Source: Gemmatimonas groenlandica (lineage in GTDB: Bacteria; Gemmatimonadota; Gemmatimonadetes; Gemmatimonadales; Gemmatimonadaceae). Taken from it: a DNA stretch of 64,000 bases. A model generated the notes under the pieces. The model was given only the letters and a program-made list of their open reading frames with translations, did no database searches and was not told the origin of the DNA. Location of the stretch: assembly GCF_013004105.1 (NCBI RefSeq), contig NZ_CP053085.1, positions 2,294,001 to 2,358,000 on the forward strand. The letters are read 5' to 3'. The number at the start of each line of letters is the position of its first letter. Within the stretch, counting starts at the first letter, position 1. Of this stretch, positions 5,308-42,023 are shown one piece after another. The translations under genes were made by a program, and so were the position numbers.

Positions 5308-6227
5308 ACGTGTCTGCCCCGCTGCACACCGCCCCGCTGCACACCGCCGCGCTGTTGGTCGCGATGTGGCTCTCGAGCGACCCTGCGTTTCGTGAACGCA
5401 CGACGGCCTGTCCAGCGCCCTCCGACTTCGTCTGGCAACCGGCGTCGCCGAAGGCTGGCTCGCTCTTTCGCGTGACGACCTCCGCGCGCACGCTTGCAGC
5501 TACACGCGCTGCACTGACGACGGCACTCACCGCCACCATTGCCGGTGAGCCCCTGCACTTCCGCGTCACCGGTGACTCGGCCATCGCCATCGCGGCGGTG
5601 CCGATTGATTCCACGACCGGCATCACGATGGCGTGGCCCTGTGCTGGCGAGGCGTGGGGGAACGTGCGCATCGTGACGACCGCCGGGAGCTACACGCTCG
5701 AGCGCCTGCGAGTCGCACCGCGCTTTGGCGCGCCACCCGATTCGGCCACGGCCGAACGCATGCGCGTGGAAGCCGAGCGTGCGGCCGCCGTCTCACGAAA
5801 CGCGCACGACACGCCGCGACTCTGGTCGACGGCATTTCTCGCGCCGCGGCCGTCGCGCATCACAAGTCCGTTCGGCGGCGGTCGCACCTTCAACGGTGCC
5901 GTGACCAGTCGTCATATGGGCACCGACTACGCCGGCGCGGTGGGCGCGCCGGTGCGCGCGGCCAACCGCGGCGTGGTCCGCATCGTCGATGCGTTCACAC
6001 TCGGCGGCAACGTGGTTTATCTCGATCACGGCGAAGGACTCGTCACGGCGTATCTGCATCTCAGTAAACAACTGGTGTCGGTCGGTGACACCGTCGCGCG
6101 TGGCGACACGATCGGACGCGTCGGTGCCACGGGTCGCGTGACGGGGCCGCACCTGCACTTCATTGCGCGCTACGGCACCATCACCGTGGATCCGGCGGGA
6201 CTCAGCTCGCTCGCGCGTTCGCGCTGA
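5304..6227 (+). CDS. M23 (LytM-type) peptidase, exported
   Basis: 307 residues from the GTG at 5304, which overlaps the preceding stop (GTGA); an inner ATG at 5364 is possible. The N-terminus is a signal sequence that includes a 15-bp tandem duplication. Residues 30-180 form an uncharacterised beta-rich domain. The C-terminal LytM domain has the zinc ligands HMGTD and HLHF, plus AVGAPVRAANRGVV and GATGRVTGPHLHF. M23 enzymes cut peptide bridges of peptidoglycan in the envelope, or act as activators of amidases when inactive; all ligands are present here, so it is likely active. It is convergent with the DUF1499 gene, 4 bp apart. Confidence 0.88.
   Translation: MNVSAPLHTAPLHTAALLVAMWLSSDPAFRERTTACPAPSDFVWQPASPKAGSLFRVTTSARTLAATRAALTTALTATIAGEPLHFRVTGDSAIAIAAVPIDSTTGITMAWPCAGEAWGNVRIVTTAGSYTLERLRVAPRFGAPPDSATAERMRVEAERAAAVSRNAHDTPRLWSTAFLAPRPSRITSPFGGGRTFNGAVTSRHMGTDYAGAVGAPVRAANRGVVRIVDAFTLGGNVVYLDHGEGLVTAYLHLSKQLVSVGDTVARGDTIGRVGATGRVTGPHLHFIARYGTITVDPAGLSSLARSR
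5317..5346 (+). repeat. 15-bp perfect tandem duplication
   Basis: CCCCGCTGCACACCG occurs twice in a row at 5317 and 5332, giving the repeated peptide PLHTA in the signal region of the M23 peptidase. The duplication keeps the frame. Confidence 0.95.
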
Positions 6228-11800: not shown

Positions 11801-14800
11801 ATGATGATGAAGCAACGAATACTCACGGTGTTCATGGGGACACTCCTGTGCGCGTCACAGGCGTTCGCCCAGACGAAAACCGTGACGGGCAAAGTGACCC
11901 GCGACGTCGGCGTTCCACTTTCCGGCGTCTCCGTCGTCGTGAAAGGCACGCCGACCGTCGTTCAGACCAATAACAGCGGCGACTACAGCATCCGCGCCGA
12001 TGTCGGCCAGGTGCTGCAGTATCGCCTCATCGGATACCTCCCGCAGGAGCGCACCGTCGGCACGGCTGACGTGATGAGCGTGCAGCTGACGAAGGCCGCC
12101 GCGAACCTCGACGCGGTCGTCGTCACCGCGCTCGGCCAGACCACCACGCAACGCAACCTCGGCACGTCGCAACAGACCGTCTCCGGCGCCGACGTGGCGC
12201 AGACCGGCCGCGAAAACTTCATCAACGGCCTGCAGGGTCGCGTGGCCGGCGTCGAAGTCACGAGCACGTCGGGCGTTCCCGGCGCCTCGTCGTCGATCAC
12301 CATTCGCGGCGTGAGCTCGATCAGCGGCAGCAACCAGCCGCTCATGATCATCGACGGCCTGCCGATGGACAACAAGACGCTTAACACCGGCTCGTTGGCC
12401 TCCGATGCGCCGGGCTCACTCACGGCCTTCAACAACCGCGGACTCGACTTCACGAACCGCGCCGCCGACATCAACCCGGAAGACATCGAAAGCATGGTCG
12501 TGCTGAAGGGCCCGGAAGCGGCCGCCCTCTACGGCATCGACGCCGCCAACGGTGCGATCGTGATCACGACCAAGCGCGGCAAGCCGGGCGTGGGCGGATT
12601 CGAATACAGCAACCGCGTGCGTGTCGACCAGACGCGCGCCCGTCCGGAAACGCAGCGCACCTACGGTCCCACCTCGGTGGCTGGCAGTGTGCTCGGCTCC
12701 TTCTCGTACTTCGGCAACCCGTACGCGAGCGGCACGCAGTTCTACGACAACATCGACGGCTTCTTCCAGTCGGCTGTGTCGCAGCAGCACAACCTGACCT
12801 TCAGCGGCGCCTCGCCCGACGCGAAAGTCAACTATCGCGTCGGCCTCGGTTACAACGCCCAAGGCAGCGTGATCCCGAACTCCGACTACACCCGCATCAA
12901 TCTGACCGGATCGGGCGGCGCCACGGTCACGAAGTGGCTCAAGACCGACCTCTCCATGCAGTACGCGCAGGCCGACAACGATCAGGCGCTCAAGGGTGAC
13001 AACGGCCCGCTCATCGGCCTGTTGCTCTGGCCGCAGACGGACAAGGCGAGCGATTACCTCACGCCCGCGGGCAACCGTCGCCGCATCACGGCGCTGGCCA
13101 CGAACTCGGAAACCGACAATCCGTACTTCAGCGTCAACAAGAATCGGGTGAACTCGCGCAACGGCCGCCTGATCGCGAATCTGGGCCTCACGATTACGCC
13201 GTTCAGCTGGGGCTACCTGAAGACGAATATCGGTTCCGACGGCTACACCAACGAGAACCTGATCCTGCGTCACCCGGAAAGCGCCGGTGTGGCCAACAAC
13301 AACAACGGCATTCTCGATGTGGCCAACGACGTCACGCGCAATCTGAACGCGCAGACGCTGTTCAACATCAACCGCATCCAGCTCACCGATAAGTTCTCGG
13401 TGAATGGCCTGGTCGGCAATCAGATCTCGGAGTTCCGGTCGGAAGTGAGCGGTCTACTCGGCCGCGACTTCCTCGATCCGCAGTTCGTGTCGGTGAACAA
13501 CACGAACGTCCGCACGACGCGCACGAACAAGCAGCAGCGTCGCCTCATGAGCCTGTTCAGCAGCCTCACGGCCAACTACAGCGATTACCTGTTCGTCACC
13601 GTCACCGGCCGGAATGACTGGACATCCACCATCCCGGTGGAGCGCAACTCGTTCTTCTACCCGTCGATCCAGACCAGCTTCATCTTCTCCGAAGCGATCC
13701 CGACGATCGGCAAGTACATGAGCGGCAAGCTGCGCGCCAGCTATGCCGAAGTGGGTAAGGACGCGCGCCCGTACGCCTATCGCCCGTCGCTCGAGTTCAA
13801 GACGACGTCGAACGGCGGCTACGGCTACGGCTTCACCGGTCCGAACCTCGATCTGCGTCCCGAGTTCGCGTCGTCGTACGAAGTCGGCACCGAACTTGGC
13901 TTCTTCAACGATCGTCTTGGCCTCGACGTGACGACGTATCGCAAGCAGACCGTCGACCAGATCGTGAACGACATCCGCGGCAGCTACGCGACCGGCTTCA
14001 TCTTGTTCAACCTGAACGGCGCCTCCACGCGGAACACCGGTGTCGAAGTCACGCTGCGAAGCACGCCCGTGATGAAGCGCGACCTCACGTGGGACGTGAT
14101 CGCCAACTTCGAGCGCGCGCGAGGTAAGGTGCTCAAGCTCCCGAATGCGCTCCCCGAGTCCTACGTGTCCGACACGTGGCTGTACGGCAACGTCCGCAAC
14201 GGCGTGGCTCCGGGGCTCTCCACGCGTTCACTGACCGGCCTGTTCTACCTGCGCGACACGATCCCGGGATCCAAGAAGATCCTCATCGATCCGACCACCG
14301 GACTTCCGCTGCGTTCCGCGGCGTTCATCGACGCCGGCTATGATCGCCAGCCTGACTTCACCATCGGCCTGACGAACACGATCCGCTTCAAGAAGCTCTC
14401 CGTCAGCTTCCTTGTCGACATCCGCAAGGGCGGCGATGTGTTCAACGCGACCGAGCACTTCCTCACCACCCGTGGCCTCAGCAACAGGACGCTCGACCGC
14501 GATCAGCCGCGCGTGATCGACGGCGTGCTGCGCGACGGCAAGGAGAACACCGCGAATCCCACGAAGAATACGATCGTGGTCATTCCCGCGGTGCAGCCGC
14601 AGTACTATACGGGCATCAGCGAAGAGCTCTTTATCGAGCGCAACATCAACTGGGTGCGCCTGCGCGACGTCACCGTGCGCGCGGTCCTGCCGGGCAAGTT
14701 CTTCAAGGCGCGCGACGCCAGCGCCTATGTCACCGGCACGGACCTGTTCCTCTTCACGAACTACTCCGGTCTCGATCCGATCGTCAACGGCAACAGCGCC

Positions 14801-14890
14801 GCCGTCGGTGGCTCGTCCGGCGTGGGCATCGACTATGGCAACTTCCCGATGCCGCGCGGTCTGGCCTTCGGCATCAAGATGGGGTACTAA
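11801..14890 (+). CDS. SusC/RagA-family TonB-dependent outer-membrane receptor
   Basis: 1029 residues. Signal peptide 1-23 (ends AFAQ). Residues 25-105 form the carboxypeptidase-D-regulatory-like domain (TVTGKVTRDVGVPLSGVSV). The SusC signature follows: ALGQTTTQRNLGTS, LQGRVAGVEVTS, SSITIRGVSSISGSNQPLMI and VLKGPEAAALYGIDAANGAI (plug domain). The remainder is a beta-barrel ending in an aromatic residue (KMGY). SusC proteins import large substrates such as oligosaccharides or peptides across the outer membrane with a SusD lipoprotein lid. Three consecutive ATG codons begin the gene; no strong ribosome site is visible. SusD follows after 3 bp. Confidence 0.93.
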   Translation: MMMKQRILTVFMGTLLCASQAFAQTKTVTGKVTRDVGVPLSGVSVVVKGTPTVVQTNNSGDYSIRADVGQVLQYRLIGYLPQERTVGTADVMSVQLTKAAANLDAVVVTALGQTTTQRNLGTSQQTVSGADVAQTGRENFINGLQGRVAGVEVTSTSGVPGASSSITIRGVSSISGSNQPLMIIDGLPMDNKTLNTGSLASDAPGSLTAFNNRGLDFTNRAADINPEDIESMVVLKGPEAAALYGIDAANGAIVITTKRGKPGVGGFEYSNRVRVDQTRARPETQRTYGPTSVAGSVLGSFSYFGNPYASGTQFYDNIDGFFQSAVSQQHNLTFSGASPDAKVNYRVGLGYNAQGSVIPNSDYTRINLTGSGGATVTKWLKTDLSMQYAQADNDQALKGDNGPLIGLLLWPQTDKASDYLTPAGNRRRITALATNSETDNPYFSVNKNRVNSRNGRLIANLGLTITPFSWGYLKTNIGSDGYTNENLILRHPESAGVANNNNGILDVANDVTRNLNAQTLFNINRIQLTDKFSVNGLVGNQISEFRSEVSGLLGRDFLDPQFVSVNNTNVRTTRTNKQQRRLMSLFSSLTANYSDYLFVTVTGRNDWTSTIPVERNSFFYPSIQTSFIFSEAIPTIGKYMSGKLRASYAEVGKDARPYAYRPSLEFKTTSNGGYGYGFTGPNLDLRPEFASSYEVGTELGFFNDRLGLDVTTYRKQTVDQIVNDIRGSYATGFILFNLNGASTRNTGVEVTLRSTPVMKRDLTWDVIANFERARGKVLKLPNALPESYVSDTWLYGNVRNGVAPGLSTRSLTGLFYLRDTIPGSKKILIDPTTGLPLRSAAFIDAGYDRQPDFTIGLTNTIRFKKLSVSFLVDIRKGGDVFNATEHFLTTRGLSNRTLDRDQPRVIDGVLRDGKENTANPTKNTIVVIPAVQPQYYTGISEELFIERNINWVRLRDVTVRAVLPGKFFKARDASAYVTGTDLFLFTNYSGLDPIVNGNSAAVGGSSGVGIDYGNFPMPRGLAFGIKMGY

Positions 14891-14893
14891 ACC

Positions 14894-16465
14894 ATGAAAA
14901 CTTTCCGCAAGATTCTGGCAATCGGCGCCGTCGCGCTGAGCACCGTCAGTTGCAACGAGTTCCTCGACGTCAACAACAATCCCAACGGTCCACAGAAGGT
15001 CTCGGCGAATCTGTATCTCGCGCCCATGATTCACTGGATGGTGACGTCGCCGCAGTTCGACGGCCGGTTCCTCGGTCGGTACACGCAGGAGTTCGTGCTC
15101 ACGGGCACGGTGCTCAGTACGTGGGACCGTATGGGCTACGACCCCTCCAGCGACAACGGCGCCCAACAGTGGCGTGACGTGTACTGGACGCTCGGCCAGA
15201 ATCTCGTCGACATGACCAACCTTGCCGAGGCCGAAGAGCGGTGGGACCTGCTGGGCGTCGCCAAGGTGCTCAAGGCGTGGGGCTGGCAGGTCACGACCGA
15301 CATGCACGGCGAGATCATCGTGAAGGAAGCGATCGATCAGTCGAAGTTCGCGTTCAACTACGATTCGCAGGAGTACGCGTATCAGGAAATTCAGAAGCTC
15401 TTGAACGAAGCGATCGTGTTGCTCAAGCGCACCGACGGCGCAGTGGATCAGGCCTACCTAGCGCGCACCGACAAGCTGTATGGCGGCGACCGCACCAAGT
15501 GGCTCAAGTTGGCGTACGGCATGTTGGCGCTGAACCTGAACCATTACTCCAAGAAGGCGGCGTACAAGCCGGCCGACGTCATCGCCGCGGTGAATCTGTC
15601 GTTCACCAGCAATGCGGATGATGCGCTGCTGACCTACCCGAATACCCAGAACGACGACATCAATTTCTGGGGACGGACGCGCGGCAATTTCAACGCGTAT
15701 CGCCAGACACAGTTCGTGGTCGGACTGATGAATGGCACGCAGTTCGGCGGCGCGGTCGATCCACGCATGTCGCGCATGCTCTCGCCGGCTCCCGATGGTG
15801 TGTACCGCGGTCTCGACGTGAATGTCGTCGGGTTCGGCGCGCTCACCGCGACGCAGCAACCGAACAACGTGTACGGCTATCCTGGGACCGGGGGACTCGC
15901 AGTGCCGGGTCGGTACATCTTCGACGACAAGGCGAAGATTCCGCTCATGACATATGCGCAGCTGCAGTTCATCAAGGCCGAGGCCGCGTACAAGATGGGC
16001 GATATGGGCACGGCACTCGCGGCCTACACGGCCGGTGTTTCGTCACACATCGATTTCGTGAACTCGCGCAACCTCGACAACAATCAGACGCCGACGCAGA
16101 TCTCGGCGGCCGAGAAGGCCGCGTTCCTCGCGAACACGGCCATCGTACCGGCATCGCCAGCAGGGCTCTCGCTCACCCGCATCATGTCGCAGAAGTACAT
16201 CGCGCAGTGGGGCTGGGGTCACAACGAGATTTGGATGGACATGCGTCGCTACAACTACACGGACGTCGATCCGGCCAGCGGCATGCAGGTGTTCCCCGGC
16301 TTCACGCCGCCGACGAGCCTGTATCCCGACAACGGTGGCAAGATCGTGCAGCGCGTCCGTCCGCGTTTCAATTCGGAGTACGTGTGGAATCTGGCAGCCC
16401 TCGAAGTCATCGGCGGCAGGGCGCTCGACTACCACACGAAGCCCCTCTGGATCACTCAACCGTAA
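14894..16465 (+). CDS. SusD/RagB-family substrate-binding lipoprotein
   Basis: 523 residues. The lipobox gives Cys20 (STVSC), followed by the classic SusD start NEFLDVNNNPNGP. TPR-like helices with the family patterns WRDVYWTLGQNL and KAEAAYKMGDMGTALAAY mark the SusD-like_2 group. The protein caps the SusC channel on the cell surface and captures substrate. There are no glycoside hydrolases beside it; the neighbours are an amidohydrolase and, further on, peptidases, so a peptide or amide substrate is at least as likely as a glycan. Confidence 0.92.
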   Translation: MKTFRKILAIGAVALSTVSCNEFLDVNNNPNGPQKVSANLYLAPMIHWMVTSPQFDGRFLGRYTQEFVLTGTVLSTWDRMGYDPSSDNGAQQWRDVYWTLGQNLVDMTNLAEAEERWDLLGVAKVLKAWGWQVTTDMHGEIIVKEAIDQSKFAFNYDSQEYAYQEIQKLLNEAIVLLKRTDGAVDQAYLARTDKLYGGDRTKWLKLAYGMLALNLNHYSKKAAYKPADVIAAVNLSFTSNADDALLTYPNTQNDDINFWGRTRGNFNAYRQTQFVVGLMNGTQFGGAVDPRMSRMLSPAPDGVYRGLDVNVVGFGALTATQQPNNVYGYPGTGGLAVPGRYIFDDKAKIPLMTYAQLQFIKAEAAYKMGDMGTALAAYTAGVSSHIDFVNSRNLDNNQTPTQISAAEKAAFLANTAIVPASPAGLSLTRIMSQKYIAQWGWGHNEIWMDMRRYNYTDVDPASGMQVFPGFTPPTSLYPDNGGKIVQRVRPRFNSEYVWNLAALEVIGGRALDYHTKPLWITQP

Positions 16466-29481: not shown

Positions 29482-31677
29482 GTGAGCCAGCCAAAGATTT
29501 GCCCGCGATGCGGCGAGGCATACGACGACGTTGTCGACTTCTGTGCGAAGGACGGCACGCGACTCGTGCGCGGTGCGCCGTCGGTGGACCTGATCGGTAC
29601 CGTGATCGCCGATCGGTACCGCATCGTGTCGCGCATCGGCGAAGGCGGCATGGGACAGGTTTACCTCGCGGAACACGTGCGCATGAAGCGCAAGAGCGCG
29701 ATCAAGATCATGCGCCCTGCGCTCGTGCACGAGGTCGAATCGGTACAACGCTTCACGCGCGAGGCGGAGAATGCCAGCCAACTCTCGCACCCGAACATCG
29801 CCGCCATTTTTGACTTTGGCGAGAGCGCAGAGGGCGTGGTGTACCTGGCCATGGAATACATCGACGGTCATCCGTTCTCCGACGTGCTCGAGCGCGAGGG
29901 CGCGCTCCACCCTGAAGTGGCCGCCGACATTATCGGACAGGCGGCCGACGGGCTGCAGGCGGCCCACGACCTTTCGATGCTGCACCGCGACATCAAGCCC
30001 GACAACATCATGCTGGGCACGCGGCCGGATGGCACGTACCTCGTCAAGCTGGTGGACTTCGGCATTGCGCGAGTGATGGGGGGCAGCGACCAGAGGATGA
30101 CGCGCACGGGCTACGCCGTAGGCACGCCGCAATACATGTCGCCCGAGCAACTGGCGGGTGACACGCTCGACGCGCGCAGCGACCAGTATTCCTTGGCCCT
30201 CGTCGCGTTCTCGGCGCTCACGGGCAAACAGGCGTTTTCCGCCGAGTCCACGAAGGAGTCGCTGATTCAGCGGCTCACCAGTCGTCCGCAATCGCTGCGT
30301 ACCGCGCGCGAAGGTGTGGAGTGGCCCGATACGCTGCAAGACGTGTTCAACAAAGCGCTGGCACCGGATGCGACCGAGCGGTATCGGACCTGCACCGAGT
30401 TTGCCGAAGCGCTGTCTGTGGCGATCAACAGCATGACGCCGACGCAAACCACCGAGCTGTATCGCCACGCGCTTGATGCGCGTTCCGCCAGTATGGTGGC
30501 ACGCACACCCAGTGGCGCCGCCGCGCTGGCGGCGGCGTCTGGGGAGCGCGTCGTGGTGACGCGCAGCGATGGCACCAATACGGTGGAACGGACATCGACG
30601 ACCGGTGAGCGCGTTGTCAATCCGGGGAGTGTCCCGCCCTCGCGGTCCCGCATCCCGATGATGGTGGGCGGCCTGCTGGTTGCCGGCTTCGCCGCCGTGG
30701 CGTTTGGTCTGCGCAACAACGGGGAGGCGTCCGCCGCCGGCGTCGCGGGGATTCTCAGTGACAGCAGCAAGCCGATGGCCGTGGCAGGCACGGCGAATGC
30801 CGCCGCCGACACGCTGGCGTTGACGCAGGATAGCGCCGGCGCCGGCGCTGCCGTAAACCCCTCAACGCGCACCGCGGCGCCCACGCTGCCTGTGTCGCCC
30901 AAGCCAGGCACCGCATCGCCGACTGCGGCCGGTGGTGCCGCCACGTCGGCGAAATTGGCCAAAACCAAAGCCGACTCCACCCGTGCGGCGGCCGCGAAGC
31001 GCACCAAGGCCGTAGAGGACAGCATCGCGGAGGTCGCTGCCGCGCGAGCACGCTATCCTGATGCCCCGTTGCGCGCCCTCATTCAACGCGGCATCGATGT
31101 CAAGGCGCATGTGGTGCGCAACAACGACCTGCGTGTCGTCGTCATGCCGACACCGATGTTCGTGGCGCGCGCCGAACAGGCAAAGGCGTGGAAGGACGCC
31201 AATGTGCGGGCGGACGGCAGCCGGTACGACGCCGCCGATCCGATTGAACGGTGGACAGCATGGAATACGCTAGTGAATGCACGCCGCGCGGTCTACGTGA
31301 TCGAGGTTGCTCCCGATCGCACCCCGTACCCGTCCATCGAGCCGGAGCGCATCATCGACTTCAAGAAGGGTGATGTGATGAGCGTTGAGGTTCTCCGCGA
31401 CGGCGCGGCGGTCGCGCTGGAGAATCCGGCACAACTACCCGCCGTCCTCAACGGCACCGCGCATCAGGCCGAAGGGAAGAAGGTGTTCAACAGCTACGTG
31501 GCCACGGTACCGGCGAGCGCCTTTGCGCCACGTGACGACGGCAAGATGCCACGCATCGAGGTACTGGTCACCGACGCGACGCGCGGCGGCGGGCCGGCGC
31601 GGATCGCGCTGTCTGACGGCCTGGTCAAACGATTGTACAACGAGTTTGCTCCGTGGCGTGACGCGTTGGCGCGATAG
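29482..31677 (+). CDS. Ser/Thr protein kinase with N-terminal zinc ribbon and exported C-terminal domain
   Basis: 731 residues from a GTG. Residues 7-25 form a zinc ribbon (CPRCGEAYDDVVDFC). Kinase domain about 45-305: GEGGMGQVYLA, AIKIM, HRDIKPDN, DFGIA, GTPQYMSPEQ, all intact. A juxtamembrane region follows, then one membrane helix (about residues 394-412, MVGGLLVAGFAAVAFGL), an Ala/Thr/Pro linker, a Lys/Ala-rich helix, and a C-terminal domain of about 200 residues with no family that I recognise (RVVVMPTPMFV, NARRAVYVIEVAPDR). The ribbon plus kinase pattern occurs in several soil bacteria; the outer domain is the likely sensor. The gene stands alone, 51 bp after the small-protein island. 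Confidence 0.9.
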   Translation: MSQPKICPRCGEAYDDVVDFCAKDGTRLVRGAPSVDLIGTVIADRYRIVSRIGEGGMGQVYLAEHVRMKRKSAIKIMRPALVHEVESVQRFTREAENASQLSHPNIAAIFDFGESAEGVVYLAMEYIDGHPFSDVLEREGALHPEVAADIIGQAADGLQAAHDLSMLHRDIKPDNIMLGTRPDGTYLVKLVDFGIARVMGGSDQRMTRTGYAVGTPQYMSPEQLAGDTLDARSDQYSLALVAFSALTGKQAFSAESTKESLIQRLTSRPQSLRTAREGVEWPDTLQDVFNKALAPDATERYRTCTEFAEALSVAINSMTPTQTTELYRHALDARSASMVARTPSGAAALAAASGERVVVTRSDGTNTVERTSTTGERVVNPGSVPPSRSRIPMMVGGLLVAGFAAVAFGLRNNGEASAAGVAGILSDSSKPMAVAGTANAAADTLALTQDSAGAGAAVNPSTRTAAPTLPVSPKPGTASPTAAGGAATSAKLAKTKADSTRAAAAKRTKAVEDSIAEVAAARARYPDAPLRALIQRGIDVKAHVVRNNDLRVVVMPTPMFVARAEQAKAWKDANVRADGSRYDAADPIERWTAWNTLVNARRAVYVIEVAPDRTPYPSIEPERIIDFKKGDVMSVEVLRDGAAVALENPAQLPAVLNGTAHQAEGKKVFNSYVATVPASAFAPRDDGKMPRIEVLVTDATRGGGPARIALSDGLVKRLYNEFAPWRDALAR

Positions 31678-31723: not shown

Positions 31724-31774
31724 GGTCGAGACCGAACCCACGCGACTCACTGTAACGAGGCAAGCGACATCCAT
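31724..31774 (+). repeat. 51-bp direct repeat, left copy
   Basis: This segment in the 165-bp gap after the kinase matches 37206-37256 without gaps (45 of 51 identical). Shared core: ACCGAACCCACGCGAC and CACTGTAACGAGGCA. The right copy ends on the start codon of the flavoprotein gene; here the following bases do not start that gene. The remaining gap shows nothing else. Confidence 0.85.
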
Positions 31775-31842
31775 TGCTCGACGGCAATCGTCTCTACCAC
31801 GCTCTGGCTAGGGGTCGTTTGGCCAATCGTCGGATGTGTGCG

Positions 31843-34800
31843 CTACCCTCGCAACCGCTCCACGACCCGCCGCGTCTCCACCGACGGCGAGGCGCCAAAC
31901 TCGCGTTGCAGCATCGCACTGAATGATTCGTAGTGGGCCAGCGCCCGTGCGCGTTCGCCCAAGGCAGCCAACGATTCCATGTAGGCGCGATGCGCGCTTT
32001 CTCGGTATGGATCGCGCCGCACCAACAGTTCACAGAGCGCCAGCAGCTCATGGTGGCGACCGCCGATGCGCGCGAGCTGCACCAACCCGTCGGCAGCGTC
32101 GGCCCACTGCACCCTCAGCCGGTCCTGCGCGGTGACCATCCACCCGTCGCCAGTGTCGCCCGACAGAAAGTCGCCATCGCATGACGCCAGCACGAGTGCC
32201 CAGCGATCGAGTACCTCGGCGTCTACCACGAGCCGCCGCTTGACCGCCGACTGCACCTCCTGCTGGAGGACCCGCAGTTCGTCGGTGTCGCACGTCAACC
32301 GTACATCGGCGCCGGGCTCGCGCAGCACTCGGTAGCGTCCGCGATCAAAGCTCACGAACGGCTGTTCGCCCAGATGCCGCCGCACATGATGCGCCGTCAC
32401 ATGAAAGACATTCCGTAGCTGTGCCGTTGATGCCTCGGGCCACAGCTCGAGGCCGATCTCTTCCTTCGTGACGACGTCATGTACCAGGAGATAGGCCAGC
32501 AGTTCGCGCACCTTCCCCGACGGCAACTGCCGACTCGGTAGCTCGACGCCGTCGCGCCACAGCGTGAAACGGCCGAGAAGCTGCACACGCACGGTCGGCG
32601 GTGGAGGCGAGTGCACCGGCGCGACCGCCGGTGCGTCGCCGCCCGGCTCAAGGCTGCGCTCGAGCGTCGTTACCTCGTTAGCCATCAGCTGCAGCGCGTC
32701 GTCGAGTACGTGGTGCAGTCCGTCGGCAATACGCGCCTCGAACTCCGCTGCCGCCATACGCGCTCGCAGTTTCTCGCGCATGACCCCGTCCCGCTGCACA
32801 TCCGGTCCGATGATCCCGGCACCACAGCTGCGGCGTAGGGCCTCGGCCACGCCAAGCAAACGCGCCGCAAGTGTACTGGCATCAGGGGTCGCCAAGACAC
32901 CGCCGGTGGCGTTGGCCACCACCCACGCCGCCGTATCGCAGGCGCGCGACACAAACCAGGCGTCGCGCTCCTCCACCAACACGGTCGCCGCCTCGCGCGC
33001 AAATGACAGCGCGGCGTTGGTGCGTCCGAGGGCCACCTGCACGTTGGCGATCCCCTCGAGCGCGAGCGAGAGAAACCACTGCTCACCGAGCTCGCGGAAC
33101 GCCGAAATGGCACGCGAATAGTCGTCCAGGGATTCATGCAGGTTCCCGACCATGTAGTGCACCAACGCGCGGCGCATTTGCATAACCGGCAACAGCCATC
33201 GATCGCTCGCGGTGGCGGCGAGTTCGAGGCTGCGATCCATGCATGCCAGTCCCTCCGGCGCGTTCCTTCGCATGGCAAGGGCAAAACCTCGCAACTGTTC
33301 ACTGAGGGCCGCCTGACGCAACAACGCTAAACGATCGCCCGCGCTGAGTGTCTGCTGTTCAACGTGCTCACGCAGCGCTCGCTCACGGGCGGTGGTGGCG
33401 AGCATGGTGTCGGTGTCGCCGGCAAAGTACGATAGCCCGGCTATGGGATACGTGAGACGCAGCACGTCCAGTTGCGACGCGAGCGGCAATTCGGCGTCAA
33501 CTCTACCCGTCGCGTCGTGTGTTTCGAGAATGCGCAACACGATGGCGCGCCCCTCACTCCACGCGACGCCGGAAATCCAGAACCAGCCGAGCACTCCACC
33601 ATAGTGCACGGCGAGTGAGATGTCCCCGTCGGCCCCCAGACACCAATCGAGCGCCGCACGGATCTCATCGAGAATTTCGCGCAATTGATTGACCGTGCGC
33701 CCCCGCGCGGGAGAGAACAATGCCGCCTCGCGCTGCGCAGCATAGCGCGCGAAGTAGCGCGCGTGCCGCTCGCGAACGACGTGTTCGTCGGCCGTCTCGC
33801 GCAGCAGCGCCGCACCATACTGACGTACGGTCTCAAGCAGTCGATAGCGGGACTGACTGTCGTCGTCACGGACTTCCACCAGCGACTGTTCGACCAATCG
33901 TCCCAGCGCCATCACGACTGCCGATCGCGCGCGCGGAGAATCATCGTCGGCACATATCGCCTCGACGGCCTCGAGCTCAAACGCCCCGCGAAACACCGAC
34001 AGGCGCCGCAGAAGCCGTTGTTCGTCATCCGCGAGCAGGTCGTAGCTCCAATCGAGCACCGCGCGCAGGGTCCGGTGACGGGGATCGGCGTTTCGCTTTC
34101 CGCGCGAGAGCAGCGCGAGCAGATCGTCGAAACGCGAAACCAGTTCATCAACACCGAGTACCGGCACGACGGCGGCGGCAAGCTCCAGCGACAGCGGCAT
34201 CCCGTCGAGTCGCTGGCAGAGCGCAACGACCGTGGCCGCGTTCGCATCGCTGAGCGCAAAGTGTGGCGTCACGGCGCGCACGCGTTCGGCGAAGAGCTGG
34301 ACCGCTTCGAACTCCGCGGCTGCACGCGCCGTGATCCGTGACGGCCCGACGCGCTCTGACGCCGCCGACACCGGTAGTGAGAGAGCGGGAATGCTCCACG
34401 CGAACTCCCCGTCCACCGCGAGCGGCTCGCGGCTGGTCGCGAGCACGCGCACCGTTTCCGTGCCGTGCAGCACCAATGCGACGACGCGTGCGACGTCGTC
34501 GATCAGATGTTCGCAGTTGTCGAAGACGATCAATGCCGGCTGCCGCTGCAGCGCCGTGCGTACCGCGTCGGCGAGCGATCGGCCGGGCGCACCACCCACG
34601 CCCAGCACCGCTGCCAGCGCTGACATCACATCACCGTCACTCCGCACCGGCGCGAGCTCCACCCACCATACCGCGTCGAAACGTCGCCACGCCGACTCGG
34701 CCATGGCCACCTCGCGCACGAGGCGCGTCTTACCGGCGCCACCGGGACCCACCACAGTCAGCAGCCGCACATTGGCGAGCCGGTCGCGTACCGCGTCCAG

Positions 34801-34890
34801 CTCCGCCTTGCGCCCTACGAACGACGACAGCGTGCCAGGGACGTTGTGGGACACGCTGGAATCGGCGAACGGCGGCGCAGCGAGGGACAT
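31843..34890 (-). CDS. NB-ARC/TPR/BTAD transcriptional regulator, SARP domain at the C-terminus
   Basis: 1015 residues. An NB-ARC ATPase comes first: Walker A VGPGGAGKTRL (about residue 47), Walker B LIVFDNCEH (about 126), then LATSREPL, LPLSLELAA-like (MPLSLELAAAVVP) and DWSYDLL. The middle (about 360-720) is TPR-like helical repeat. At the C-terminus is a winged helix (VQLLGRFTLWRDGVELP, GKVRELLAYLLVH, ELWPEAS) followed by a BTAD helical domain (residues about 900-1015). In AfsR-type SARP regulators the DNA-binding part is N-terminal; here it is C-terminal. It likely senses a ligand through the repeats and ATPase and regulates nearby genes, perhaps the divergent lipoprotein. Confidence 0.88.
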   Translation of the reverse strand: MSLAAPPFADSSVSHNVPGTLSSFVGRKAELDAVRDRLANVRLLTVVGPGGAGKTRLVREVAMAESAWRRFDAVWWVELAPVRSDGDVMSALAAVLGVGGAPGRSLADAVRTALQRQPALIVFDNCEHLIDDVARVVALVLHGTETVRVLATSREPLAVDGEFAWSIPALSLPVSAASERVGPSRITARAAAEFEAVQLFAERVRAVTPHFALSDANAATVVALCQRLDGMPLSLELAAAVVPVLGVDELVSRFDDLLALLSRGKRNADPRHRTLRAVLDWSYDLLADDEQRLLRRLSVFRGAFELEAVEAICADDDSPRARSAVVMALGRLVEQSLVEVRDDDSQSRYRLLETVRQYGAALLRETADEHVVRERHARYFARYAAQREAALFSPARGRTVNQLREILDEIRAALDWCLGADGDISLAVHYGGVLGWFWISGVAWSEGRAIVLRILETHDATGRVDAELPLASQLDVLRLTYPIAGLSYFAGDTDTMLATTARERALREHVEQQTLSAGDRLALLRQAALSEQLRGFALAMRRNAPEGLACMDRSLELAATASDRWLLPVMQMRRALVHYMVGNLHESLDDYSRAISAFRELGEQWFLSLALEGIANVQVALGRTNAALSFAREAATVLVEERDAWFVSRACDTAAWVVANATGGVLATPDASTLAARLLGVAEALRRSCGAGIIGPDVQRDGVMREKLRARMAAAEFEARIADGLHHVLDDALQLMANEVTTLERSLEPGGDAPAVAPVHSPPPPTVRVQLLGRFTLWRDGVELPSRQLPSGKVRELLAYLLVHDVVTKEEIGLELWPEASTAQLRNVFHVTAHHVRRHLGEQPFVSFDRGRYRVLREPGADVRLTCDTDELRVLQQEVQSAVKRRLVVDAEVLDRWALVLASCDGDFLSGDTGDGWMVTAQDRLRVQWADAADGLVQLARIGGRHHELLALCELLVRRDPYRESAHRAYMESLAALGERARALAHYESFSAMLQREFGASPSVETRRVVERLRG

Positions 34891-34950
34891 GCGGCAGGGG
34901 ACGAGGTGACGCGGGACTGGGACAATACGCGATGGTGCGGGGCGCGTCCA

Positions 34951-34971
34951 TTAAGCAGGCAGTTAAGCGGG
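34951..34971 (+). promoter_or_regulatory. Direct repeat in the regulator/lipoprotein divergent region
   Basis: TTAAGCAGG (34951) and TTAAGCGGG (34963) repeat with 12-bp start-to-start spacing in the 171-bp region between the divergent starts at 34890 and 35062. Members of the SARP group bind short direct repeats about one helical turn apart, so this is a candidate site for the neighbouring regulator. Confidence 0.3.
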
Positions 34972-35033
34972 CGCCCGTAGAATGTCGGCGTAGCTCATGG
35001 CCGGCGGCCGTCCTTCCCGGTCATTCGGCAGTC

Positions 35034-35055
35034 CACTGGCGTCACACTGGAGTCA
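35034..35055 (+). repeat. 11-bp tandem repeat before the lipoprotein start
   Basis: CACTGGCGTCA and CACTGGAGTCA follow each other directly, one mismatch. The spacing is the 11 bp typical of SARP binding sites, but the second unit also contains the likely ribosome site GGAG (35049-35052), so it may equally be a plain duplication. Confidence 0.6.
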
Positions 35056-35061
35056 CCTACT

Positions 35062-37122
35062 ATGCCTGTCAATTTATCAGTGCCCATCCGTTTGCGCCCG
35101 AGTGCGCGCACGCTGCTCGCGATCGTGGCGGCGCACATTCTGGCCGCCTGTGCCCCCGACACGACGGCACCCGTCGCGGTGGTGCCGGTGGCCACCGTGG
35201 AAATCACCACGTCCAGGGCGGAACTGGTGGTCGGGGAATCCCACGACTTCGACGCGGTCCCCAAATCAGCCACCGGCGCCATCCTGCGTGACCGTGCGGT
35301 GGTCTGGCAGAGCGAGAATGAGGCGGTAGCAAGCATTTCCGCAGCCGGAGTGTTGCTGGCGAAGAGCGGCGGCGCCGTGGGCATTGTGGCCACGAGCGAA
35401 GGGCGCAGCACGCGGTTTGTGGTGAACGTGCTCGTTCCCAATCCTGTCCCGGTCCTGCAGGCCATCACCCCTGCGACGATCAACGCCGGCATCACCACCA
35501 ACTTCACGGTGATCGTGCGCGGGGAAGGATTCACCGACGCATCGCGCGTGCGCTGGAACGATCTGGCGCGCCCCTCTGAATACGTGTCGCCAACGGAGCT
35601 TCGTATGACCGTCACTCCGAACGATGTGGCGGAAGTCGGCGCGCGCGCCGTCACGGTGGTCACGCCGGGCCCCGGTGGTGGCGCCAGCGCGGCGTTGATC
35701 TTTACGGTGGAGCAGCCGGCGCCGGTCATTACCACGGTCGCGCCGAGCCAGATCGTCGCCGGGTGGGGCATGCCGTTCACCGTGGTGCTCACGGGAACGG
35801 GCTTCACCGGCGCCACGCAGCTGTTCGTCGACGATCAACCGCGCGCCATCGAGCAGCGTACGGCCACGACCATCGCCTTCCGACTGGCGCCGACCGACGT
35901 GGCCGGCGCACGGCAGATCAGCATTCGCGTGGGCAATGCGGCGCCAGGCGGTGGCTCGGCGACCGCGGCCTTCGAGGTGCTCGCGGTGCCGGCGGCGTCG
36001 CTCTCCATCGAGCTCCCGTACGAGGTGGCGTGGACGTGGGCGGGCATTCGATTGCCGCTCAACGCGGTGGTGCGGAGCGCGACGAACCGTGAGCTGCCCG
36101 ATCGTCTGGTAACGTGGGGTGTGCAGTCGCAGGCGGTGGCATCGGTCACACCTACGGGGCTGCAAGGCGTTGCCGTGTTCGGCAACAATCCAGGCGTCAC
36201 GACCGTGAGCGCCAAAGTTGACGACATTACGACGTACGCGCAGGTCAAAGTCTATGCGACGCCGGCGTTCGACGTGATGTACAGCGGTGGCGTGTTGGGC
36301 AGTCGTCATATCCGCCGCTGGGACATCGCGACGAACAACCTGCCGCGTCGCCTCAACCTCGGTATGGAGGCCATGTACCCCGCACCCGCACCAGACGGAG
36401 CACACTTTGCCTTCATCGGACTGCCCGGTACGTCGGCGCAGACCGATCTGTACGTGGCGCGTGCCGACGGAAGCGATGTCCGTCAGCTCACGAGCGATAA
36501 TGCCAGCGATGTGTACCCGGCGTGGTCACCCGACGGCTCGCGCATCGCGTGGGTGAGCTCGCGCTCATCGGGGCTCAACATTTACACGGCGCGCCCCGAC
36601 GGGAGCGACGTGCAGCAGCTTACGTTCGCTCGATTCGACGATCCGCTCCCGGGCTCCGGTCAGGTCGCCACACGTCCTTCGTGGTCACCTGATGGTCGAC
36701 ACATTGTGTACACCGTGGGCGTCAACAACCGCTCACAGCTGTGGGTCATGAACGCGCAGGGTCACGACAAGCGCCGGCTGACGGCACCCGCCAACGCCGA
36801 CGATTACGAGCCGACGTGGTCGGCTGACGGCCGCACCATCGCCTTTCGGCGTGTGTCGCGCACGTTCCCCCAGACGTCGCTCATGCGCGTTGACGCCGAG
36901 ACGGGCGCCGAGATCAACAATCTCTGGCTCGGCCAGATACCCTTTGCCGGCACACCCTCGTTCTCACCGGACGGCAACTGGCTCATCATGTCGAGCGACG
37001 TAGCCTCCGATGCGCCAGCGCTGTACGGTATGCCTGCCAAGGAGATGGCGCAGGGTGCGCGTCCGCTGTGGCCGCTGACGCTCACTGGTGGCGTGCGCGA
37101 CGCGGTGTGGATCAAGCGGTAG
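35062..37122 (+). CDS. Surface lipoprotein with Ig-like domains and beta-propeller
   Basis: 686 residues. Lipobox ILAAC (Cys about 30). Domains in order: a Big_2-like Ig domain (about 45-125, VWQSENEAVASISAAGVL), two IPT/TIG units (about 130-300, ATINAGITTNFTVIVRG and QIVAGWGMPFTVVLTG), a second Big_2-like domain (about 310-400), and a C-terminal PD40/TolB-like propeller (about 410-686; YPAWSPDGSRIAWVS, RPSWSPDGRHIVY, EPTWSADGRTIAFR, TPSFSPDGNWLIM). This architecture suggests a cell-surface adhesion or binding protein. It diverges from the BTAD regulator, a likely controller. Confidence 0.88.
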   Translation: MPVNLSVPIRLRPSARTLLAIVAAHILAACAPDTTAPVAVVPVATVEITTSRAELVVGESHDFDAVPKSATGAILRDRAVVWQSENEAVASISAAGVLLAKSGGAVGIVATSEGRSTRFVVNVLVPNPVPVLQAITPATINAGITTNFTVIVRGEGFTDASRVRWNDLARPSEYVSPTELRMTVTPNDVAEVGARAVTVVTPGPGGGASAALIFTVEQPAPVITTVAPSQIVAGWGMPFTVVLTGTGFTGATQLFVDDQPRAIEQRTATTIAFRLAPTDVAGARQISIRVGNAAPGGGSATAAFEVLAVPAASLSIELPYEVAWTWAGIRLPLNAVVRSATNRELPDRLVTWGVQSQAVASVTPTGLQGVAVFGNNPGVTTVSAKVDDITTYAQVKVYATPAFDVMYSGGVLGSRHIRRWDIATNNLPRRLNLGMEAMYPAPAPDGAHFAFIGLPGTSAQTDLYVARADGSDVRQLTSDNASDVYPAWSPDGSRIAWVSSRSSGLNIYTARPDGSDVQQLTFARFDDPLPGSGQVATRPSWSPDGRHIVYTVGVNNRSQLWVMNAQGHDKRRLTAPANADDYEPTWSADGRTIAFRRVSRTFPQTSLMRVDAETGAEINNLWLGQIPFAGTPSFSPDGNWLIMSSDVASDAPALYGMPAKEMAQGARPLWPLTLTGGVRDAVWIKR

Positions 37123-37205
37123 CAGTGACGCTTGGCGTGGCACTTGGCGAGTGACGCGATATCATTGTTGAGGCTTGGGCAAGCAGCAGGAAAGGCGGCG
37201 GTGAT

Positions 37206-37256
37206 GGTCGATACCGAACCCACGCGACCCACTGTAACGAGGCACACCCCATCCAT
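37206..37256 (+). repeat. 51-bp direct repeat, right copy
   Basis: Counterpart of 31724-31774 (45/51 identities). It lies directly before and includes the first two bases of the ATG at 37255 of the flavoprotein gene, so it covers the position of the leader and ribosome-binding region, including ACGAGGC about 13 bp from the start. Confidence 0.85.
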
Positions 37257-38628
37257 GATGCAAACGGACTACGTGGTCGTCGGTGCGGGAGCTGCCGGTA
37301 TGGCCATCACCGATGCGTTGCTCACCCATACCGACGCCACCGTCACGATGGTGGACCGCCGTCACGCGCCCGGCGGACACTGGATCGATACCTACCCGTA
37401 CGTGCGACTGCACCAGCCCTCGGCATTTTATGGAGTGGATTCCACAGCACTCGGGCAGAACACGATTGACACGACTGGCTTGAATGCCGGGTTCTACGAG
37501 CGCGCCAGCGCGGACGAGATCCGCTCGTACTATGGGCAGGTCATGCAGCACCGCTTTCTCGCCAGTGGACGCGTACGGTATTTCCCCAACTGCGAGTACC
37601 TGAACGACCAACGCGTTGGTTCACGAGTGAGTGGGGCAATCTGGGAGTTACGCGCCGCGCGCAAAGTCATCGATACGACATACCTGGAGGGCGACATCCC
37701 CGCCACGAGTCCGCCGCCGTTTGAGGTCGCAGACGGCGTGCGGTGTGTCCCGGCGGGTGCCATCACGCATCTTCAGGAGAGACCGGAAACGTTTGTGGTC
37801 ATCGGCGGCGGAAAGACGGCCCTTGACGCGTGTGTCTGGTTGCTTGAACAGGGCGTTGCGCCAGAAGCCATTCGGTGGGTCAAGCCGCGAGAGAGCTGGT
37901 GGATAAACCGCAAGTATGTGCAGCCGGCCACACTCCTGCCCGATCTCTATCGCGGCCATGCGCTCCACTTGGAAGCCACGGCGCAGGCTACGTCAGTTCG
38001 CGACCTGTTTGCCCGGCTGGAGGCAAAGCGCTTCATGCTGCGCGTCGACACTGAGGTAGAGCCGAGCATGTATCGCGGCGCATTCATCAGTGAGACCGAA
38101 CTCGATCTGGTCCGTACGATCAAGAACGTCGTACGACTCGGTCACGTGCGGCGGATCGATCAGCACACCATCACGCTCGATCAGGGTCAGGTACCAACCA
38201 GTGCGCGCAGCCTGCACATTCACTGTGCGGCGCGTGCCCTTCCGCGGCCCGAATTACGGCCAATGTTTGAACCGGACCGAATCACCGTCCAGCCGTTCAT
38301 GCGAGGACTCGCCTGCTTCCAGTTTGCGATGGTGGGAGTCGCCGAGGCGTTGTTGAACACGGACGACGAAAAGAACCGCGTGTTACCTCCGATCAACTAC
38401 TGGGACTCGACCAGAGATTCCCTCACCAGCCTGCTGGCTGGAGTCGCCCACGCAAAGGCTCGTGCCGACTACCCGGCGCTCGCCGCGTGGGCGAATACGT
38501 CGCGTCTCAATCCGATGGGAGATCTCGGGCCGTATCGTGATCACCCCGACGTGCTGGAGGCGCGAGCACTGATCCAACATCATAGTGCTGCGGCCTACGG
38601 CAACATGTCGCGACTGATTGCGATGTGA
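37255..38628 (+). CDS. FAD/NAD(P)-binding oxidoreductase (flavin monooxygenase-like)
   Basis: 457 residues from tandem ATGs at 37255/37258. The frame continues upstream to 37132, but that part contains the 51-bp repeat and no conserved sequence. FAD motif VVVGAGAAGMAI is at residues 6-17, followed by DRRHAPGGHWIDTYPYVRLH, a pattern of flavin-containing monooxygenase-like proteins. A second Rossmann motif, VVIGGGKTALDACVWLL, is near residue 180 for NAD(P)H. The C-terminal part is specific to this group. It is likely a cytoplasmic monooxygenase or reductase of unknown substrate. Confidence 0.82.
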   Translation: MMQTDYVVVGAGAAGMAITDALLTHTDATVTMVDRRHAPGGHWIDTYPYVRLHQPSAFYGVDSTALGQNTIDTTGLNAGFYERASADEIRSYYGQVMQHRFLASGRVRYFPNCEYLNDQRVGSRVSGAIWELRAARKVIDTTYLEGDIPATSPPPFEVADGVRCVPAGAITHLQERPETFVVIGGGKTALDACVWLLEQGVAPEAIRWVKPRESWWINRKYVQPATLLPDLYRGHALHLEATAQATSVRDLFARLEAKRFMLRVDTEVEPSMYRGAFISETELDLVRTIKNVVRLGHVRRIDQHTITLDQGQVPTSARSLHIHCAARALPRPELRPMFEPDRITVQPFMRGLACFQFAMVGVAEALLNTDDEKNRVLPPINYWDSTRDSLTSLLAGVAHAKARADYPALAAWANTSRLNPMGDLGPYRDHPDVLEARALIQHHSAAAYGNMSRLIAM

Positions 38629-38683: not shown

Positions 38684-41600
38684 TCAGCGCCGCAGCGACT
38701 CCGCGGGTAAAAGCGCCTGCATCCGCGCGCGTGCGTCACGTACGCTCGGCTGTAAGTCGGCATCCGCCCGCTCGTAGCGCGTCGCGTAGTCGCGATACGC
38801 GGCCGCCGCGTTGCGCGCGTCTCCCCGTGCTTCGTAAATGCGCGCCAGCGCCAGCATAGTCCGCGCTGGCACCGTGAGGTCGGGCCCGACTCGCGGTCGC
38901 ATGCCATAGGGGGTGCGGCGGTAGGCGTCGTACTGCGCCAACGCGGAGTCGGCAACGCCCTGCTCGGCAAACACCCGCAGCAGCTCCAGTGACAGGCACT
39001 CCACGCAATTAGTGGCCGGCCCATCCGCCTCTTGATCCGCGCGGCGTGCCGATGCCACCGCTTGCGCCCATCGTCCCTCGGCCATCGCCAGCTCCGTGAC
39101 GATCGCCATCCGGGAATCGGCGTAGCGCTTTCGCGCGGTCGAATCGCTCACGCTCCGGTCGAAATCGGCCAGCGCCTCCTTCATGCGCGACGCCATGCCG
39201 AGCTTGGCGTACACGCGCGCCGCAGCTAGGCTCGCGGCTACCCGCGATGTCGGTGGCGCACCGGCCCGTGCCGCCTCGAAGTCACGCAACGCCTCCGATA
39301 CGGGCGCACCGGCGTCGATCGTGCTCTCCAACGACATATACGATGCGGTGAACGCATCAATCGGCACCCCCTGCGCCCGGTAGGTCGCCAGCGACACTCC
39401 GCGAAAACGATCCGCATCGCGCAAGCGACCTTCGGTCAGCGCCAGCATCATCTGTCGGTTGGCGGTCTGCACCGGGTCGCGCGCGTCACCCTCAACCACG
39501 GCGCTGTCCACCAGGCGACGATACAACGGCAGGTCGCCGCTGAGCTGCGCACGCGTTCTGGCCCAGGCGCTATTCAGGTTGTCCTTCGGGAATCGGCGGC
39601 GAACGATGGCCTCAATGGAATCGACGCCGCTCCAGTGTCCTTGCAAAAAGAGATTCGAACGCAACGCACTGAGTCGCAGCACCCCCGAATCACGCTGAAC
39701 GACCAGTCGGCGCAGCACCTCGGCCCGGGCAAATTCGCGCCGGCTTTCGTAGCGCCCCGCGAGGTTGCCCAGCACGCTGCTGTCACCGAGCGCGAGGACG
39801 CGTTCGAACGCCTGAATGGCCTTAACGCGATCCGCGTGTGTGCCGGCGGCAAAGTACGACGCCGTCACCCGTTCGGCGTCGATCTCCGTGAGTCGGCCGC
39901 GGAGCTGGTACGCCTTGGAAAGCGCGGAATCGGCCGCACCAGGTGCCGCCGTCATGTTCGCCAGCAGCAGTCCCAGCCTCCGCCACCCTTCGGCAAAGAG
40001 CGTATCGATGGCCACGGCCTCGCGGAACAGTTCCGCCGCGCGCAGCGTGTTGCCTTCAACGTCTGCCGCTCGCACGCCAGCCGAGTATCGACGCAGCGCC
40101 TCGAGCGAACTGGTGGTGACCCGTTCGAGTGGCGGCGTGGCATTCACGACGCGTAGGGATTCACCAATGCGCGCGCGCAGCTTGCGAGAGAGTTCGTCCG
40201 CCATCTGAATCAGGCGGTCGGGGCTCTCGGCCGTTGCCCGATACGACGCCAGCTCTCGTCCCGAATCGGCCGTGACCAAGCGCACCGCCAGGATGTACGA
40301 CGATCCAACGGCCGTCAGTTCGCCATCGACAATCGCCCGCACGCCCTCGCGCGTGGCGACATCGCGCATGAGGTCGAGCGCAAGCCGGCTGTCACGCGGA
40401 CGCTGCATGCGCGTGAGTGCCTCGCCGATCTCCGTGGGCGTGAGCAGCGTGAGGGCACCAGACTGCACGAGGCCCGCCCGTACGGCATCGGAGGCCACGC
40501 GGCCAAGCAGCGTGTCAGCGCCACGCACCGAAAAGTCAGTCATGACGAGGCGCTCGTGATCGGCGAATGCGCCACTGGCTTGCAGCGAGCCCGCCGGTCC
40601 GACGCCCATCGCCCGAAGGCCCATGAATCCGGCTATCATAAGCGCAAACGCGCCAATCACGGCGATGCTGCCCTTCTCGACACGAGCCCAGGTGAGGTGC
40701 GGGCTCGCCGCCAACGCCGCCCGCGACAGGCGCGTCGGCGCGGTGTCGCTCGCTGAGGCGGAGGCGGAGGGGGAGGAGGCGTACGCGGTTGCGCTCGTAA
40801 TCGTGGTTGCGTTGGCGCGCGCCACGCGCTGCACGAACCCGGTCACGAGAATGAGTGGGAGGCCGAGCGCCGTGATCAGCAGAGTCGCCGGAAACACCCA
40901 CGTGGGGAGGCCGATACTCGACGTCGCGACTTTCGCGACCAGCCCCAGCACGACGACCGCGGCGCCCCACGTCACGATGGCACGCCACACACTGGTCACA
41001 CTGCTCGTGGCCTGCGGAATCTCTCCGCTACGCACATCCGTCTGTTCGAGCGCCAGCACCATGTCGCGCGCCTCCTGCGGGCGCAGCGCGGGGTCCTTCG
41101 CCAGACACTGCATCACCAGCGAGGCCAAGGCGGGCGGAATGCCGGACCGGCGCTCCGAGATCGGTGGCACCGTCTCGGTGATTTGCGCGACCAACTGTCG
41201 CTGGAACGGGCGACCGGCAAACGGCGCCGTGCCGGACAGCATCTCGTATGCGACGCATCCGAGAGCGTAGAGGTCCGAGCGCTGATCGATCGCATCGCTA
41301 CCGGCCGCCTGTTCCGGCGACATGTACGCCGGGGTACCGATGGCTATGCCGATCTGCGTGAGGGCGTCACCATGCGTCTCGGCGCGCGCCGAGCTCACGG
41401 CCTTGGCGATGCCGAAGTCGGCCACGGTGGCGGCGTCACCGGTGAGCAGAATGTTGTCGGGCTTGATATCGCGATGGATGATCCCGCGCTCGTGCGCGTA
41501 GGCGAGCGCCTTGGCCACGTCGCGCAACACGCTCACCACGTCGGCGATGGGCAGTTCGGGTACGCGGTCGATACGGGCCCGCAGCGATTCGCCCTCGATG

Positions 41601-41878
41601 TACGGCATGCTGAACCACGGGAGCCCGTGCAGTGACCCGACGTTGAGCACGGGCACGATATGCGGGTGCTGCAGCCGCGCCAACAACAACGTCTCGCGGT
41701 TGAATCGTTCCAGATGTACAACGCCCGCCAGTTCGCTCGGCAGTACTTTCAGCACGACCTGGCGACGCAGCGCGAGATCGTCAGCAAGAAAGACGCGGGA
41801 CATCCCGCCGCCACCAAGCTCGCGGTCCAGCCGGTACCCGGTACCGAGTGCGACCTGGAGGTCGTCAAAGGTGCTCAT
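38684..41878 (-). CDS. Large membrane Ser/Thr kinase with TolB-like and TPR domains
   Basis: 1064 residues from ATG at 41878. Kinase domain about 10-275: ELGGGGMSRVFLADD, VVLKVLP, HRDIKPDN, DFGIAKAV, GTPAYMSPEQ, all functional residues present. Three hydrophobic segments (about residues 305-330, 335-360, 415-440) anchor it. Then comes a domain of FlgO/TolB N-terminal type (VASDAVRAGLVQSGALTLL, VDGELTAVGSSYILAVRLV), followed by about 500 residues of TPR repeats ending RARMQALLPAESLRR. This is the commonest kinase architecture in Gemmatimonadota. The periplasmic repeats probably bind proteins or peptides. It diverges from the NTF2-like gene at 42118. Confidence 0.92.
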   Translation of the reverse strand: MSTFDDLQVALGTGYRLDRELGGGGMSRVFLADDLALRRQVVLKVLPSELAGVVHLERFNRETLLLARLQHPHIVPVLNVGSLHGLPWFSMPYIEGESLRARIDRVPELPIADVVSVLRDVAKALAYAHERGIIHRDIKPDNILLTGDAATVADFGIAKAVSSARAETHGDALTQIGIAIGTPAYMSPEQAAGSDAIDQRSDLYALGCVAYEMLSGTAPFAGRPFQRQLVAQITETVPPISERRSGIPPALASLVMQCLAKDPALRPQEARDMVLALEQTDVRSGEIPQATSSVTSVWRAIVTWGAAVVVLGLVAKVATSSIGLPTWVFPATLLITALGLPLILVTGFVQRVARANATTITSATAYASSPSASASASDTAPTRLSRAALAASPHLTWARVEKGSIAVIGAFALMIAGFMGLRAMGVGPAGSLQASGAFADHERLVMTDFSVRGADTLLGRVASDAVRAGLVQSGALTLLTPTEIGEALTRMQRPRDSRLALDLMRDVATREGVRAIVDGELTAVGSSYILAVRLVTADSGRELASYRATAESPDRLIQMADELSRKLRARIGESLRVVNATPPLERVTTSSLEALRRYSAGVRAADVEGNTLRAAELFREAVAIDTLFAEGWRRLGLLLANMTAAPGAADSALSKAYQLRGRLTEIDAERVTASYFAAGTHADRVKAIQAFERVLALGDSSVLGNLAGRYESRREFARAEVLRRLVVQRDSGVLRLSALRSNLFLQGHWSGVDSIEAIVRRRFPKDNLNSAWARTRAQLSGDLPLYRRLVDSAVVEGDARDPVQTANRQMMLALTEGRLRDADRFRGVSLATYRAQGVPIDAFTASYMSLESTIDAGAPVSEALRDFEAARAGAPPTSRVAASLAAARVYAKLGMASRMKEALADFDRSVSDSTARKRYADSRMAIVTELAMAEGRWAQAVASARRADQEADGPATNCVECLSLELLRVFAEQGVADSALAQYDAYRRTPYGMRPRVGPDLTVPARTMLALARIYEARGDARNAAAAYRDYATRYERADADLQPSVRDARARMQALLPAESLRR

Positions 41879-42023
41879 GCCGCTGAATCTGACGGGACGG
41901 ACGGACGAAGGGAACGGGGGAGCCCCTTGCCACGTCGCCGGTACGCCACGACGGCATCGATGACCGCGATGGACCTTCGATGCATCCGTGAAAGACACTT
42001 CGGGACGGGCACCTCGGACATCG

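Follow-up and report, generated by a model that had tools for sequence, protein, structure and literature searches.

A 51-bp direct repeat around a regulator and a lipoprotein-like gene of Gemmatimonas groenlandica as a candidate duplication scar

In the genome of Gemmatimonas groenlandica, two closely similar stretches of 51 bp bracket the genes for a BTAD-containing regulator and a lipoprotein-like protein. This arrangement raises the question of whether the two copies share a function or whether they are the trace of a rearrangement, and if so, of which one. A preliminary description of the window, i.e. the whole stretch of 64,000 nucleotides analysed here (positions 2,294,001 to 2,358,000 of NZ_CP053085.1), had offered two readings: a duplicated leader left behind by insertion or recombination of the regulator-lipoprotein module, or a shared regulatory element. 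The former is the best reading of the data presented below. The latter is weak, since the genes on either side of the left copy both end towards it.

The repeat pair and its setting

The 51-bp repeat is real and far above chance. Direct comparison bears out the preliminary description: the copies, spaced by 5482 bases, agree at 45 of 51 positions in a gap-free alignment, one lying on the leader and start of the flavoprotein gene and the other in the gap past the regulator (Table 1). In a comparison of 51-base direct pairs within the window using 13-base seeds, the next best pairs reached 43 of 51 matches, with both copies in one gene (59957-61567), and 33 of 51. The local alignment score of the repeat is 39, compared to a mean of 8.4 and a maximum of 15 in shuffled sequences, and none of 1000 shuffles reached 39. 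When the whole genome was searched with the left copy, the repeat match was returned with E = 8.6e-12. The edges of the repeat are sharp, with an ungapped identity of only 2-4 of 10 positions in all 10-base blocks compared to its left and right. Gapped alignments suggesting homology beyond the 51 bases were not accepted; upstream, the alignment was marginal (35 of 1000 shuffles, 6 of 150 random controls), and downstream it was at 85 of 1000 shuffles and 27 of 150 controls.

Table 1. Features at the repeat locus, with positions in the window
Feature	Position	Strand	Remark or basis
Ser/Thr protein kinase, upstream of left copy	29482..31677	+	Pfam Pkinase
Left copy of 51-bp repeat	31724..31774	+	between convergent gene ends; probable vestige
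Regulator: STAND ATPase, TPR, C-terminal BTAD domain	31843..34890	-	domain search
Lipoprotein-like protein (domains: Big_2, TIG, PD40 propeller); divergent from regulator	35062..37122	+	domain search
Sigma-70-like promoter match upstream of right copy	37137..37165	+	weak: 1 found, 0.6 expected in shuffles
Right copy of 51-bp repeat	37206..37256	+	flavoprotein leader through first two bases of ATG
FAD/NAD(P)-binding oxidoreductase (flavoprotein), probably horizontally acquired	37255..38628	+	domain search, homologues, G+C
Second kinase, after flavoprotein	38684-41998	-

The flavoprotein gene has the right copy as its untranslated leader, with a ribosome-binding motif; this copy spans 49 bases ahead of the ATG and the first two bases of this codon. 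The start codon at 37255 is backed by the N-termini of two homologues (L066 and L069), which start near this position, and the only promoter-like match found in a promoter scan is the one listed in Table 1. An upstream-extended flavoprotein frame beginning with an ATG at 37204 was considered as an explanation of the repeat as coding DNA. In this frame, all differences between the copies alter the encoded residues, an excess of silent changes was absent as read by eye, and the two homologues start near 37255; the coding reading was rejected. The left copy lies within the 165-bp gap between the stops of the convergent kinase and regulator genes, and no supported gene follows it.

Two of the six mismatches between the copies are single changes (31730 and 31747), and the other four fall within five bases (31763-31767), located between a ribosome-binding-like GAGG and the start codon. 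Because of this clustering, the divergence of the copies may consist of two point changes and one local event.

Distribution of the repeat and of the neighbouring genes

Searches with either copy detect exactly two copies in the genome (5,179,092 bases, one contig), and the same two are found with a 28-base core allowing up to 3 mismatches, for which a reversed control pattern gave no match. Many unrelated copies, which the preliminary description had named as an argument against its interpretation, are thus not present. Among 179 genomes of the family, including the own genome, the 51-base match is confined to the latter, and the left copy with its flanks had no match better than E 0.0075 in 40 relatives. 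Five other family genomes have weak matches to the right leader (E 6.6e-4 to 8e-3), each 19-27 bases long and located at the left end of the right copy. All of them lie in long open frames, two of which (L157 and L161) resemble one shared gene while the remaining three differ, and we regard these matches as fortuitous hits to coding DNA. At six loci of flavoprotein homologues, compared on both strands, no similarity to the leader was detected (at most 27 of 51, which is background level). A plasmid collection contained no match to the repeat, and exact patterns had none in viral and genome contig collections, which may omit this organism. Rfam yielded no RNA match, and no tRNA was found.

The preliminary description had suggested checking whether relatives lack the segment between the repeats and have kinase and flavoprotein genes adjacent to each other. 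The regulator-lipoprotein segment is absent from the relatives examined, and its conservation in all of them, which had been considered as contradictory evidence, was not observed. No genome among those examined has the kinase gene adjoining a flavoprotein gene, and none of the relatives keeps both flanks together. The C-terminal part of the kinase is encoded in 7 of 30 genomes of the genus, including the own genome. No relative of the regulator or the flavoprotein was found at the six kinase loci of the other genomes, one of which (L060) contains another copy of the kinase and a remote match to PD40, while the view of another (L061) is limited by its end 404 bases past the kinase. The DNA following the kinase stop in these six relatives shares at best 21-27 of 51 positions with the left copy and does not resemble it.

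Homologues of the regulator were found in 36 of 395 genomes of the phylum, including the own genome, at E 1e-70, some of them matching the N-terminal part only. Full-length homologues occur in other genera, whereas the 29 other genomes of the genus contain only partial or split matches. Neighbourhoods were inspected for the 24 best regulator matches besides the own one, with five genomes supplying two neighbourhoods each. A relative of the lipoprotein-like protein adjoins the regulator in five of these 24, in divergent orientation in L120, L121, L124 and L135 and co-directionally in L118; in L124 and L135, the lipoprotein match is short and the gene is not delimited, and a small intervening gene is possible. 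A further neighbourhood (L128) has two lipoprotein relatives located farther from the regulator, and none of the 24 contains the flavoprotein. As a rough control, 24 loci fetched for homologues of the kinase, the flavoprotein and the ATPase part yielded one lipoprotein match (L060), not beside a regulator, with an E cut of 1e-5 instead of the 1e-6 applied to the regulator neighbourhoods and with only the best query counted per place. Relatives of the lipoprotein are abundant, with 49 matches in the own genome, and the pairing is therefore only suggestive. The STAND-BTAD regulator and the Ig-like/PD40 lipoprotein-like gene are suggested to be a candidate pair of a regulator and a surface protein. 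The product of the latter gene is a putative lipoprotein as judged by eye from its N-terminal sequence, and it may be the target of the regulator, to which the divergent arrangement and its recurrence point.

The flavoprotein gene was probably acquired horizontally. Its best match, with 63% identity, is found in two Caballeronia plasmid records (megaplasmids). In the phylum, homologues are encoded in 6 of 395 genomes, including the own genome, with at most 47% identity (E cut 1e-40), and in the genus in 3 of 30, likewise including the own genome, with 38-39%. The regulator and lipoprotein genes both have a host-like G+C content of 66.6%, whereas that of the flavoprotein gene is 61.5%, and the flavoprotein may therefore be the newcomer at this locus.

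Origin of the repeat pair

The repeat pair is best explained as a lineage-specific duplication scar in which the left copy is a vestige, a reading to which we give about an even chance. According to this reading, the 51-bp stretch that is now the flavoprotein leader would have been duplicated once in this lineage during recombination. In the slightly preferred form, the regulator-lipoprotein pair would have been inserted between the kinase and flavoprotein genes by illegitimate recombination, perhaps helped by short homology, and one leader copy would have come to lie on each side; we infer both that the duplication accompanied this insertion and the direction in which it proceeded. The right copy would have continued to serve as leader with its ribosome-binding motif, and the left copy, stranded between convergent gene ends, would be idle. 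This reading is supported by the presence of only two copies, their absence from the 40 relatives, the sharp edges, the position of the left copy before no supported gene, and the patchy occurrence of regulator and lipoprotein as a set across genomes. The insertion of the regulator pair is slightly favoured, since joining the flanks gives a sensible order of kinase and flavoprotein genes, on one strand, 95 bp apart and with the leader intact. On the other hand, none of the relatives examined has these two genes adjacent, and both the insertion of the module and the proposed order of events are therefore tentative. In addition, the G+C content suggests that the flavoprotein is the newcomer, and the pairing in five of 24 neighbourhoods rests on an abundant lipoprotein family. 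Furthermore, 51 bp is long for a transposon target-site duplication, which also counts against the scar.

A newcomer status of the flavoprotein is the core of the alternative that we consider possible but clearly less probable. In that case, the flavoprotein gene would have been transferred horizontally into the position after the lipoprotein gene, and resident intergenic DNA beside the kinase would have been copied to its front to serve as a leader. The match to Caballeronia, the scarcity in phylum and genus and the lower G+C content agree with this, but a 51-bp copy would have had to land 5.4 kb away, precisely in front of a start codon, and a greater age of the left sequence is unsupported, as the DNA past the kinase stop is different in the six relatives. 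It is improbable that the left copy is a deletion remnant, i.e. the leader of an earlier flavoprotein duplicate beside the kinase that was otherwise lost. Although the copy stops just where the gene would begin, no coding remnant of a flavoprotein follows it and the similarity of the downstream flanks is at the level of the controls. Even less probable is the shared regulatory element, in which both copies would be operators or leaders for one regulator such as the BTAD protein. In its favour, the copies match strongly across the ribosome-binding motif and the sequence upstream of it, in contrast to their dissimilar flanks. Against it, no gene follows the left copy on either strand, none of the copies lies between the divergent regulator and lipoprotein genes (34891-35061), the place expected for a target operator, and no third copy exists in the genome.

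The other short intergenic repeats of this genome, described below, would agree with a dispersed repeat family, an attachment site or a transposon end, but we regard these origins as very unlikely. There are two copies instead of many, and the searches of tRNA, Rfam, plasmid, viral and genome contig sequences gave no indication of an attachment site or mobile element. A segment bounded on either side by direct repeats resembles the product of a transposon insertion with target-site duplication; in contrast to the latter, terminal inverted repeats are lacking at the ends of the interval (score 7, control mean 8.2) and no transposase or integrase domain was found in the genes tested, of which the two main ones between the copies encode the regulator and the lipoprotein-like protein. 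A functional role of the left copy as antisense RNA is equally unlikely: a regulator transcript extending about 70-120 bases past its stop would be complementary to the flavoprotein leader including the ribosome-binding motif and could silence its translation in trans. A scan of the region past the regulator stop found no terminator-like site, and the energy of the duplex is -145.2 compared to a control mean of -91.3 and a minimum of -118.5; this energy is not independent evidence because it follows from the sequence identity itself. If it existed, such a regulatory RNA would be born from a rearrangement scar, a short recombination by-product creating a trans-acting RNA at one stroke.

For the duplication scar, the kind of event would be an ordinary one, fitting known small variable segments with direct repeats. 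According to one study, some 10% of the small variable segments in bacterial genomes are flanked by direct repeats and much of their diversity is attributed to illegitimate recombination (PMC2884548). As in the segments covered there, the DNA bracketed here is gene-sized, absent from the relatives examined, bounded at both borders by a short direct repeat and free of known mobile-element parts. In contrast to most repeats in that study, which are below 30 bp, the present one has 51 bp at 88% identity. Homology-facilitated illegitimate recombination, as described in a further report (PMC3240628), is similar in that one end of the foreign DNA needs little or no homology to be joined, but it differs in that the mechanism proposed here is deduced from sequence and not from an observed event. 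A literature search found nothing on this locus. The scar would record a rearrangement specific to this lineage, in a region of poor synteny, and suggests that regulator and lipoprotein may travel together.

Other repeats in the genome and the window

Among 20 stretches of 20 kb from the same genome (400 kb), six contain 51-base direct pairs with at least 38 matches within 20 kb, and of the pairs inspected, those in L136, L148 and L151 appear to be intergenic repeats. Therefore, short repeats near each other are not rare in this genome, but those are longer or present in more copies. In L151, 57-bp copies at 1739-1795 and 5420-5476 are accompanied by two further copies in inverted orientation (1877 and 5552), so that both direct and inverted pairs bracket segments a few kb long. 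The intergenic-looking repeats of L136 (3182-3301, 9704-9824 and 10530-10585) and L148 (391-659 and 2944-3210) have hairpin-like sequence as seen by eye.

Within the window, the second-ranking direct pair (60501-60551 and 61341-61391) probably represents repeated domains of an ABC-type ATPase, a domain name assigned by eye. Also by eye, two genes at 11801-16465 resemble a SusC/SusD-type outer-membrane uptake pair.
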